Shown: positions 8,146 through 12,225, counted from the first letter of the stretch. The stretch: DNA of 64,000 bases from Leptospiraceae bacterium (GCA_026418015.1 JAOACE010000009.1:219087-283086); one strand, 5' to 3'. The notes: generated from the letters alone by a model not told the origin. A program made the numbers and translations.

Positions 8146-11141
8146 ATATTGACAATACTACCATCTTCAAACTCCACTTCGTAATTCCCCTCTTGTAGAG
8201 GGGCAAGGGGAGTTATTCTCTTAATCCACTTACCTGTTAGGTTTGATAATGTTTCTGCAATGTCTATATTTTCGTACAATTTACTTAAATCTACTTTTAC
8301 TTTATTGTTTTTATAATCGATTTCTAATGCGCGAAGCATTTTTTCGTCTTTCATAAACACATATTGTTCATAAACTGATTTATTGCCTACAATAAGCATA
8401 TCGTGATTTTCGTAAACGGTATTCGCCAATGTTTCTTCGTATTGTTCCAATTCGTAGTATTTGAAAAAGCCGCCGCCTTGATAAATCCCCTCTCTTAGAG
8501 GGGATAGGGGTGTGTTATCCCCCTCTTGCAGAGGGGTGTCAGACGAAGTCTGACGGGGTGTTCTCAATTCTTTGCTTATTCCTGATTTATCATAGGCCAA
8601 AACCTTTTTCATTCTTGGCAAAACAACGGTGTAAAAATGCTCTCCCATTTCTACCCCAAGCCACTTTCTGCCGAGTTTATGGGCTACTGCTGTTGTTGTG
8701 CCGGAACCTAAAAAATAATCAAGAATCAAATCCCCTTGCCCTGAAGTAGAGTCAATAACTCGTTTTAAGAGTTGCTCTGAATTTTCAGTTCTAAATCCCC
8801 AACCAGAAGAATAACCGGGAATATCTATCCAAAGAGTATCAATCCCAATTTCTTCGGATGGCAAAACAAGATACTCCGGCATACCTTTCGTTTTTTTACC
8901 TCTTACATCAATATATTCTGCCTTTTCATTTATTCTAATTCTTCCCTCGGCATACATTAGATCTACTTTTTCCTGCCCAAATTTCCAATTATGATTCGGT
9001 CTAGGATAAAACAATCTTCCTTCCACGCTAATCGGGATTGAAGATTTACCCCCTGATTCTAGTGAATGCCAATATGCTTCTCTTTTTTGAGCTAACTTTT
9101 TGTATTGAGGATAAAATTTAAACTTTTCACTATTAGAAAACCAAAATAATTGATCAGTGCCTGATGAATACTGTTTTGACTCTTCTTTCATAAAACCCAA
9201 CTTTGTAATTCTTTTTACCTGAAGTTCATTCCTAAAATTCTCCTTTCCAAAAATCTCATCCATCAAACATCTAACAATCCAATTGCCGTTATAATCACAT
9301 CTTACAAAAATACTTCCTTTTTCATTTAGCCATTCTCTTGCTATTCTCAATCTATTTTCAAGAAGCGTTGCCCAGTTGGCATCTTTGTAGTTTGTGCGAT
9401 ATAAAAACTGGTCAGAAGAATCTAAATTAAACGGCGGATCAATATAAATTGTCTGCACTTTTTCCTTAAATTTCGGCAGGATTGTATTGAGTGCCTGATA
9501 GTTTTCGCTCTTTATAAGCCAGCCGTCCAGGGATTTGTCTAAATCATCAAATTGGCTTAATATCTCAAGTTCCAAATCTTTGAAATATTTTGTATCAATA
9601 GGTAAGTGTTTATACTTTTCTGAAAGCCTTTTACCCATCAAATCTTCTTCAAAAACATCACTAACCCTAAAGCTTTCATCTACAATACCAAGCTCCTGCC
9701 ATTCTTTTATCTGTTCGTTTATATTTGGGTGATTGAATATTTTTTCCACCAAATTCCCCTCTTGTAGAAGGGTTAGGGGTGTGACATTCCCATCTCTTAG
9801 AGGGGTTAGGGGTGTTAATTCTGTCTCCAAAAACTTCATCACCCCTTCAATATTATTCAATACATCTTCAGCTCTTACATGATAGACTTTTAGTCCTAAA
9901 CTTTTCAAATATTCATCACGCTCGGCATCATATTCCATCTTTTCGTTATGACTATCACCATCTATTTCCACAACAACTCCAAGTTCTTTGCAATAAAAAT
10001 CCACAATGTAATTGCCTACTATTTTTTGCCTATCAAAATCTAATCCCAAAAATTGTTTGTTCCTTACTTGCTTCCAAAAAATAATTTCAGCCAAATTACC
10101 TGCTTTTCTTAATTCACGGGCTCTTTCTTTGAGATTTGGATTGAATGGTAATTCATACCATTTGGGAACACCCCCAGCCACTCTATCAGAAGAAGATAAA
10201 ACTCCCCCAACCCCTCTATCAGAGGGGAGGTTTTGGTAGATTCTATCCAACGTAATCACATAATTAGAATTCTTCACAAACTTCGGCTTGTTCCAGATCT
10301 TCACCAATTCATCTTCAAATTGACTCACAAAATCTATTATCTTAAATGCAATATCCTTTAATATCTGTAATTGATTTACTCTATCGGCTGTCCATTCCTT
10401 CGCCCCATCCCAAAAATACTGATAACTCCACAACTTAAACTGTTCTTGTAAAAAACTTTTTGCATTCTTATTTATAAAAAAATCTACTTCGCTCTGTTTT
10501 TCAAATATGCGAAATGCTCTTTCTAATTGTTCTTCGTCAATCTTTATCTCTTTTTTCTTTAGCTCTTTGAGTATATCTTCAGTTTTTGTTACTCTCCCTT
10601 TTTCGGAATAATAAACATTAAAAACTATTGTCTTATCTTTTTGTATTTCTTTTAGTTCATAAATCAAACTGCGTTTTTCGTTGGCTTTCTTATTTTCTAT
10701 CGTCGCTGCATCAAAATAAAACTTATATCCATCAAACTCAACTGGCATGCTTCTAAATATTCTATCTGTCTTTACATAATAGAGCATCTGCGTCTTCCAG
10801 AATAAAATGACGTCTTTGTCGTCCGTATAAACCTTTTCATAAACATTGTTATGAAATGGCGTAGAATTAAAATAAATAGAACCGCTTTCGGAAAAATATC
10901 TAATAAAAAAAGAATAGAGTTTATCGAATAGCTCTTCCCTAAAAGAAGGATATTGTTTTAATGCTTTATCAATATCATCTTTTAATATTTTTTCAATTTT
11001 GGAATAGTAATTTGACTTTATTTTCATTAGATTTACAAATCCGCCTTGTCCTTCGATTTTGGCGCCGATAAAAACATCTTGTAATGCGTTGTAAAATTTT
11101 TGTTCTTTGGTTCCGTTTTTTGCCATAGGGATATCCTCCAA
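8097..11141 (-). CDS. mod: Type III DNA methyltransferase Mod with internal DUF559 insertion and several in-frame palindromic repeats
   Basis: TIYIDPPFNLDSSDQFLYRTNYKD; GDLILDYFLGSGTTTAVAHKLGRKWLGVEMG; GGGFFKYYELEQYEETL; C-terminal DYRLIKPLIWWE. Confidence 0.9.
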   Translation of the reverse strand: MEDIPMAKNGTKEQKFYNALQDVFIGAKIEGQGGFVNLMKIKSNYYSKIEKILKDDIDKALKQYPSFREELFDKLYSFFIRYFSESGSIYFNSTPFHNNVYEKVYTDDKDVILFWKTQMLYYVKTDRIFRSMPVEFDGYKFYFDAATIENKKANEKRSLIYELKEIQKDKTIVFNVYYSEKGRVTKTEDILKELKKKEIKIDEEQLERAFRIFEKQSEVDFFINKNAKSFLQEQFKLWSYQYFWDGAKEWTADRVNQLQILKDIAFKIIDFVSQFEDELVKIWNKPKFVKNSNYVITLDRIYQNLPSDRGVGGVLSSSDRVAGGVPKWYELPFNPNLKERARELRKAGNLAEIIFWKQVRNKQFLGLDFDRQKIVGNYIVDFYCKELGVVVEIDGDSHNEKMEYDAERDEYLKSLGLKVYHVRAEDVLNNIEGVMKFLETELTPLTPLRDGNVTPLTLLQEGNLVEKIFNHPNINEQIKEWQELGIVDESFRVSDVFEEDLMGKRLSEKYKHLPIDTKYFKDLELEILSQFDDLDKSLDGWLIKSENYQALNTILPKFKEKVQTIYIDPPFNLDSSDQFLYRTNYKDANWATLLENRLRIAREWLNEKGSIFVRCDYNGNWIVRCLMDEIFGKENFRNELQVKRITKLGFMKEESKQYSSGTDQLFWFSNSEKFKFYPQYKKLAQKREAYWHSLESGGKSSIPISVEGRLFYPRPNHNWKFGQEKVDLMYAEGRIRINEKAEYIDVRGKKTKGMPEYLVLPSEEIGIDTLWIDIPGYSSGWGFRTENSEQLLKRVIDSTSGQGDLILDYFLGSGTTTAVAHKLGRKWLGVEMGEHFYTVVLPRMKKVLAYDKSGISKELRTPRQTSSDTPLQEGDNTPLSPLREGIYQGGGFFKYYELEQYEETLANTVYENHDMLIVGNKSVYEQYVFMKDEKMLRALEIDYKNNKVKVDLSKLYENIDIAETLSNLTGKWIKRITPLAPLQEGNYEVEFEDGSIVNIKDLDYRLIKPLIWWE
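8184..8213. repeat. In-frame palindromic repeat unit in mod (encodes TPLAPLQEGN)
   Basis: ATTCCCCTCTTGTAGAGGGGCAAGGGGAGT; CCCCTCttgtAGAGGGG stem. Confidence 0.8.
8486..8563. repeat. Two tandem palindromic repeat units in mod, second with nested GTCAGACgaaGTCTGAC hairpin
   Basis: CCCCTCTCTTAGAGGGGATAGGGGTGT and CCCCTCTTGCAGAGGGGTGTCAGACGAAGTCTGACGGGGTGTT. Confidence 0.8.
9753..10229 (-). mobile_element. Putative DUF559 endonuclease-domain insertion in mod, bounded by two palindromic repeat units on each side in opposite orientation
   Basis: 477 nt = 159 codons in frame. Encodes LPSDRGVGGVLSSSDRVAGGV-[PKWYELPFNPNLKERARELRKAGNLAEIIFWKQVRNKQFLGLDFDRQKIVGNYIVDFYCKELGVVVEIDGDSHNEKMEYDAERDEYLKSLGLKVYHVRAEDVLNN...]-ELTPLTPLRDGNVTPLTLLQEGN. 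Removing it joins YVITLDRIYQN to LVEKIFNHPNINEQIKEW. Confidence 0.75.
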
Positions 11142-11298: not shown

Positions 11299-12225
11299 TC
11301 ATTTTTTTTCGAATTCCTGCTGTTTGTAAGATGAATCATTCAAAATAAAATCATTGATTCGTCTTTGTGCTAATTCTATGTATTCTTGGTTTGTTTCGTA
11401 GCCAATATAATGTCGATGGGTTTTTATTGCTGCAATGGCTGTTTGTCCACTTCCCATAAAGGGATCGAGTATCACTTCTTTTTCGAATGTGTAGAGTTGA
11501 ATCAACCTATAAGGTAATTCCACAGGAAAAGGGGCTGGATGACCTACTTTTGTTGCAGGTTCCGCAGAAAATGTCCATACACTTTTGGTAAATTCGAGAA
11601 ATTCTTCTTTGGAGATCGTGCTCTTTTTATTTTCGATACGATCTCTGGCAAAAGAGCTTTTAGAAAACACCAAGATATATTCATGAATATCTCTTAATAT
11701 GGGGTTTTTTGCAGAAAGCCATGTTCCCCAAGCAGTGGAAGGACTTCCGCTAGATGCCTTATTCCAGATAATTTCGCCTCGCATCAGAAACCTTAAATCC
11801 AGCATATCTTCGATCAGGAATGCGTGCAAGGGAATATATGGCTTTCTTCCTAAGTTCGCGATATTAATACAAGCTCTTCCACCAGGTACAAGAACTCTTT
11901 TTACTTCGGTCAATACCCTTTTTAAGAATTCTCTGTATTCGTTTAATGTTAAGTTTTCGTCGTATTCTTTGCCTACATTGTAAGGTGGAGAGGTGACCAT
12001 CAAATGTACGCTATTATCGGGTAATTCTTCCATTTTTTCGCTCGTTTTGCAAAAGATTTGATCTAAATATTGCGATGGAATGGTATTCTCTATATATTCG
12101 TAAGATTCTTCTTTGGGCAGTCCTTCGTATAACCTGCTTTTGTAGAAATTCGTAGAGTCGTGATTGATTCTGCCGTGAGAGCCAAAAGTACTTGTTTTAG
12201 TACCTTTTTTTCTTTGATGATTCAT
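11299..12225 (-). CDS. Site-specific DNA methyltransferase (SPPY type, likely N4-cytosine or N6-adenine)
   Basis: MVTSPPYNVGKEY; VILDPFMGSGQTAIAAIKTHRHYIGYETN. Confidence 0.9.
   Translation of the reverse strand: MNHQRKKGTKTSTFGSHGRINHDSTNFYKSRLYEGLPKEESYEYIENTIPSQYLDQIFCKTSEKMEELPDNSVHLMVTSPPYNVGKEYDENLTLNEYREFLKRVLTEVKRVLVPGGRACINIANLGRKPYIPLHAFLIEDMLDLRFLMRGEIIWNKASSGSPSTAWGTWLSAKNPILRDIHEYILVFSKSSFARDRIENKKSTISKEEFLEFTKSVWTFSAEPATKVGHPAPFPVELPYRLIQLYTFEKEVILDPFMGSGQTAIAAIKTHRHYIGYETNQEYIELAQRRINDFILNDSSYKQQEFEKK

Follow-up and report, generated by a model that had tools for sequence, protein, structure and literature searches.

Why does a type III DNA methyltransferase gene carry, within its reading frame, a nuclease domain enclosed by palindromes? 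We examined such a gene in a window of 64,000 nucleotides from a Leptospiraceae bacterium (the window being the whole stretch of DNA analysed), in which the original prediction had seen a mobile element that the host protein tolerates. We consider it likely that the segment is a small mobile element, made up of a homing-type DUF559 nuclease and its cognate palindromic ends and lying in frame in Mod. The features on which this reading is built are as follows.

8097..11126 (-): mod, type III DNA methyltransferase, host gene of the insertion (ORF, PADLOC, Pfam)
9753..10229 (-): in-frame inserted segment of 159 codons (477 nt), palindromes, DUF559 nuclease, palindromes
9752..9783 (+): palindromic unit AATTCCCCTCTTGTAGAAGGGTTAGGGGTGTG, outer, mod 3' side (sequence, pattern search)
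9786..9818 (+): second palindromic unit, in the same orientation as the 9752-9783 unit (sequence, pattern search)
9822..10151 (-): DUF559 (Vsr/EDxHD-like) nuclease domain (PF04480, alignment, AlphaFold, Foldseek)
10168..10195 (-): degenerate palindromic unit in the opposite orientation, inner, mod 5' side (sequence)
10200..10233 (-): palindromic unit CCTCCCCTCTGATAGAGGGGTTGGGGGAGTT in the opposite orientation, outer, mod 5' side (sequence, pattern)
8480..8570 (-): solo in-frame units ..ELRTPRQTSSDTPLQEGDNTPLSPLREGI.. in mod, including a two-hairpin form (DNA fold z=-5.7)
8175..8215, about 8187 (-): solo in-frame unit ..RITPLAPLQEGNYEV.. in mod (DNA fold z=-3.1)

The inserted segment, its nuclease and its palindromes

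The product of mod is a type III Mod protein of 1009 aa, recognised as MTase_III by PADLOC (E=2e-290) and as N6_N4_Mtase by Pfam, with its methylase motifs DPPFN and FLGSGTT intact. The segment occupies exactly codons 300-458 in frame, so the predicted in-frame cassette is real, and its palindromes are translated as a low-complexity TPLTPLxxGN peptide. Excision had been expected to fuse the flanks cleanly. Removing the segment does preserve the frame, joining IYQN to LVEK, but this junction is one codon shorter than in typical empty homologues, which read I-KDEK-LIEK. The ends of the segment are therefore not defined to the base, and neither a target-site duplication nor an exact element end could be delimited. 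At the same locus, a second N6/N4 DNA methyltransferase gene devoid of DUF559 (11299-12225, -) lies directly upstream of mod, and a large helicase-like ORF (1511-4459) is a candidate Res subunit.

The nuclease domain, described beforehand as complete-looking, matches PF04480 over profile positions 3-106 of 109 (103.4 bits against a curated cut-off of 20.6; E=8e-30). In a 57-sequence alignment it has all nine invariant residues (R15, E22, W26, Q42, D51, F52, E62, H68 and D75), among them the acidic and His residues E22, D51, E62, H68 and D75, unchanged in all 57 sequences. AlphaFold predicts the domain with a pLDDT of 91, and Foldseek matches this model to NGO0050 (3hrl), to the catalytic domain of the homing endonuclease I-Bth0305I (3r3p; E=8e-5) and to Vsr (1vsr), in agreement with the proposed homing-type nuclease. 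Furthermore, phmmer finds 3hrl at 2.9e-13, and the NCBIfam match is PRK09767. Judged from substitution patterns, the nuclease is under purifying selection: pN is well below pS, synonymous differences far outnumbering nonsynonymous ones, and since synonymous sites are saturated the dN/dS ratio is unreliable for most pairs.

Two C/G-rich palindromes had been proposed at each end of the segment, in inverse orientation. The orientation holds, although one of the two units on the mod 5' side is degenerate. Allowing up to 3 mismatches, CCCCTCTNNNAGAGGGG has 8 matches in the window against 0.3 expected, six of them within mod. Across the host genome (2.91 Mb), all 5 matches to the extended palindrome are inside mod, and the 4 matches to the generic palindrome pattern correspond to the four exact mod units. 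Shuffles and within-locus controls rule out chance or composition as the source of the palindromes, whose occurrence is far beyond chance. In the same island, the M78 peptidase gene (4976-6094, -) has a small in-frame palindrome, CACCTTTAAGCAAAGGTG (about 5128-5150), read as NTPLSKGGN.

A search for another copy of DUF559 with repeats in the host genome returned none. Since in this genome the palindrome is confined to mod, DUF559 occurs once and Y1_Tnp is absent from the 2.91 Mb, it is probable that mod was acquired from another source and already contained its palindromes at that time.

Empty and occupied sites in Mod and in other genes

Scanning GTDB contigs with the joined Mod flanks yielded 80 homologues, none of which has DUF559 at the window's site. 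The segment is missing from the majority of Mod homologues, an outcome in favour of the original prediction; one of them, from a congener, is empty at the site and does not carry these palindromes. On the other hand, locus L223, retrieved through its DUF559, has the nuclease at exactly the window's Mod site. Six further loci (L059, L062, L063, L065, L066 and L067) carry DUF559 about 35 codons downstream (site 2), and several of these copies have complete inverted ends of the form AATTCCCC-stem-GGGGTG-stem-GGGGT. In L014 both site-2 ends are present and the nuclease is missing, as would be expected of an internal deletion derivative.

The solo units also vary among homologues. The site of the 8480-8570 unit is empty in L223 and in most Mod homologues; that of the 8175-8215 unit is filled in L223 and L003 and empty in the others. 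At positions other than the insertion site, solo palindromes differ between the mod genes of the window and L223, KELRTPRQTSSDTPLQEGDNTPLSPLREGI being present in the former but not the latter and GTPRQTSFATPLQEGN the reverse, and units have therefore been gained or lost since these two genes diverged. Eight homologues (L020, L037, L038, L044, L051, L065, L066 and L067) have a GTCAT-type palindrome at the window's Mod position instead, translated in frame as CHSERSEES / CHCEERSDEAIS. The presence of this palindrome type at the same position marks the Mod linker as a hot spot for unrelated palindromes.

The nuclease and its host protein appear to have separate histories. On the nuclease tree, DUF559 of the window has that of L223 as its sister, within a clade of Mod site-2 copies plus L199. 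Every site-1 copy falls in this one clade, as do the site-2 copies apart from those of the L063/L127 type. L199 lies outside Mod and has the same two-hairpin ends, directly after a sequence that we read from the translated flank as HsdS-like. On the Mod tree, by contrast, carriers and empty alleles are intermingled: the 9 carriers require 9 label changes, as expected from shuffled labels; well-supported branches force just two label changes. The scatter fits an element moving between Mod alleles, and ordinary recombination of mod genes could also have produced it. No signal of co-conversion tracts was seen around the Mod insertion.

Copies of DUF559 with palindromes are numerous elsewhere, both free-standing and in frame in unrelated genes. 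With the host genes apart from Mod named from our reading of the translations, DUF559 with translated palindromes lies in frame in UvrC (one locus), MetH (two) and HsdM (three), and further in-frame copies are found in HsdR (two) and other methylases (four). A RecQ-like protein has another copy at its C-terminus. On the DUF559 tree, branches with good support require at least 8 switches between the free-standing and the in-gene state.

Empty sites, as predicted for a mobile element, are likewise found beyond Mod. The MetH linker is empty in 22 same-class relatives and filled in 2. Sinorhizobium has a DUF559 gene enclosed by two copies of a palindrome doublet in intergenic DNA; Shinella is empty at this site, and Sinorhizobium plasmids carry scattered short matches to the doublet. 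The Azospirillum records all have the copy and are uninformative for empty sites. In a Sphingomonas parapaucimobilis plasmid, a DUF559 gene with palindromes sits between sufB and sufC of an Fe-S operon. Palindromes adjoin the gonococcal gene (Neisseria NGO0050), and in E. coli ycjD is accompanied by palindromes of this type on a single side. We found no clean empty ycjD site in the E. coli sapF-ycjD-fabI region: this stretch is mostly missing from about 38% of complete E. coli genomes, and the three inspected strains that lack ycjD there (L234, L235 and L236, compared with L237) hold a different insert, with multidrug efflux genes right after sapF. The sapF-ycjD-fabI query has a median of 4 places per E. 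coli genome, one of those listed being a 41-bp stretch beside ycjD.

Palindromes and nuclease genes across bacteria

We compiled 132 DUF559 loci from the window's phylum, the class of genome G015 (labelled Ignavibacteria) and other genomes, and added 8 from plasmid-collection records. Among the 124 loci with usable flanks, stems of at least 7 bp were present on both sides in 53%, versus 2% of distal windows of the same loci and 3% of control ORFs; about half of the DUF559 flanks are thus without a strict hairpin on both sides. Left and right flanks were mutually inverted (score of at least 14) in 53% of the loci versus 4% of mismatched loci. The C/G palindrome motif lies beside 81% of DUF559 genes in the class and 68% in the phylum, absolute rates that are partly fitted because the motif was composed after viewing DUF559 flanks. 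The evidence therefore lies in the contrasts with background windows (2.3%) and with other families, namely GIY-YIG genes (4%) and Y1 transposase genes (0/29). The notion that any mobile gene has such palindromes fails, as same-class GIY-YIG and Y1 genes are without the C/G type. Plain hairpins on both sides do not separate DUF559 (57%) from GIY-YIG (37%; P=0.11), since palindromes of other types lie beside GIY-YIG genes.

Palindrome orientation is not constant: the hairpin points outward in some copies and inward in others. Palindrome sequence tracks nuclease relatedness (Mantel 0.226, permutation maximum 0.088). Within genomes, the palindrome of a copy has a similarity of 0.365 to that of its closest foreign DUF559 relative, to which the palindromes of the other copies in its genome score 0.224 (P=5.5e-6, n=44), a test that rules out genome background as the cause of this matching. 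Dispersed palindromes are also in excess in genomes with DUF559, with medians of 1.91 versus 0.00 per Mb above control (P=3e-6) and, in a second sample, of 2.82 versus 0.45 (P=7e-6), both P values being upper-end estimates of certainty given that species are not independent. One genome, G170, has many palindromes despite having no DUF559.

Some GIY-YIG genes have palindromes of another type. GTCAT-type palindromes lie beside 26% of a first set of 27 same-class GIY-YIG genes and 14% of a second set of 36, versus 0-1% near DUF559 and 0% near Y1. Eight stand-alone GIY-YIG ORFs are examples, flanked by this palindrome family (CGTCATTCTGAGCGAAGCGAAGAATC type), which resembles CGTC REPs, reportedly without a transposase. 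These data suggest a parallel pairing of nuclease and palindrome for GIY-YIG. Many GIY-YIG ORFs (seven loci) adjoin tRNA genes, and several of these apparently lie between a tRNA gene and a partial duplicate, as if inserted with restoration of the target.

Mechanism, alternatives and known systems

Considering the empty sites, the recurrent copies and the homing-nuclease fold, the reading of the segment as a protein-tolerated mobile element is supported. From the sequences compared, the nuclease and its palindromes appear to move as one unit. The nuclease would cut at or near a target, and repair of the break would copy the element in; alternatively, the hairpin ends may be processed as in REP elements. 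In mod, the segment would have entered a linker and be translated as a tolerated extra domain, with homing as a putative route among Mod alleles. Palindromic ends without the nuclease may spread in the manner of REP/MITE units, in-frame insertion included, the solo palindromes perhaps being mobilised in trans by the nuclease.

In one alternative, DUF559 is a passenger that has repeatedly been caught between REP/MITE units of the ordinary kind, and these owe their spread to replication slippage or to a different enzyme, for example a Y1 transposase. This view draws on the far greater number of solo units than of nuclease copies, and on the fact that DUF559-rich genomes are usually Y1_Tnp-rich, the 5 DUF559-positive genomes without Y1_Tnp showing no palindrome excess. 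However, Y1 presence has no effect on these palindromes in genomes lacking DUF559 (P=0.67), the effect of DUF559 is strong among Y1-positive genomes (P=2e-6), the Y1 genes examined carry none of these palindromes, and palindrome type follows the nuclease clade within single genomes. We therefore regard this alternative as unlikely. Somewhat less probable still is a Mod-nuclease fusion of the kind seen in type IIG or defence enzymes, in which DUF559 would serve the methyltransferase by restricting foreign DNA and would be retained for that reason, the palindromes being incidental. Many in-frame hosts are indeed restriction-modification genes (Mod, HsdM, HsdR, Eco57I-like), and the purifying selection on the nuclease would agree with such a role. 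Against it stand the like insertions in uvrC and metH, the two distinct sites in a Mod family whose members mostly lack DUF559, the locus's own Res candidate, and the palindromes of the same kind that flank free-standing intergenic copies.

That the segment is an intein-like or intron-like element removed by splicing is very improbable. DUF559 does occur in the endonuclease position of an intein-like ORF (L225:701-1015, CLRKGTRV...VVHNC), and a DUF559-containing intein gene of Thermosynechococcus has been assigned to EDxHD (PMC9403480). Nevertheless, the palindromes of our segment are read in frame as peptide, and an intein was rejected on the segment ends, which have neither an N-terminal Cys/Ser nor a C-terminal His-Asn before a nucleophile.

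Returning to the mobile-element reading, its closest counterparts are the REPtrons (RAYT / tnpA-REP), in which a Y1 HUH transposase is flanked by palindromes (PMC3733652, PMC8266576). As there, a small nuclease gene is flanked by palindromes, many solo units are dispersed, some of them inside genes, and nuclease clade and palindrome type co-vary. The flanking and dispersed units describe the DUF559 family overall, whereas the host genome of the window has such units in mod and nowhere else. Unlike in REPtrons, the nuclease is Vsr/EDxHD-like and unrelated to HUH Y1, the defining Y1 gene is absent, and the Y1 genes examined lack such palindromes. Unlike in REPs, no GTAG tag was recognised, the unit combining a C/G-rich stem with either a G-run or a further hairpin.

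RPEs, or protein-coding palindromes, are in frame and translated and have been described without a nuclease (PMC10969869, PMC3733652); a 2013 survey states that CGTC-tagged REPs, including some RPEs, 'lack a dedicated transposase' (PMC3733652). The mod solo units and the palindromes in UvrC, MetH and HsdR resemble RPEs in lying in frame in unrelated protein genes. They differ in that full DUF559 copies carry the nuclease, and by motif-level comparison they may also differ in sequence family, a GTCAT-type motif lying near just 0-1% of DUF559 copies. With the EDxHD homing endonucleases, reviewed together with I-Bth0305I in PMC3943268, DUF559 shares the predicted catalytic fold, an element-like spread and an occurrence in an intein-like ORF. 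In contrast to I-Bth0305I, the DUF559 copies compared here are minimal single domains (about 110 aa) with no added DNA-binding domains, are flanked by palindromes, lie outside a group I intron and are often translated inside a host protein. NGO0050 (3hrl) and YcjD belong to the same family as the window's DUF559 but are free-standing genes. In the open-access literature, mostly titles and abstracts, we found no published description of DUF559 with palindromes or transposons.

Altogether, the occurrence of DUF559 with palindromes between and inside genes of many bacteria suggests a type of mobile DNA that has drawn little notice and that proteins can accommodate. More tentatively, and with slightly less than even confidence, we propose that small nuclease domains may be the missing autonomous partners of transposase-less REP/RPE-like palindromes, DUF559 for the C/G-rich and GIY-YIG for the GTCAT/CGTC types, together forming a class of mobile elements, each a nuclease with its palindromes, that regularly enter protein genes in frame in many bacterial phyla. 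How palindromes spread inside protein genes (RPEs, CGTC REPs) is a question two decades old, and a nuclease that travels with its own palindromes would make it testable with one protein and a few oligonucleotides. Such a reading would also give a role to DUF559, a large family of unknown function, and would account for many in-frame insertions in restriction-modification and core genes, such as uvrC and metH.
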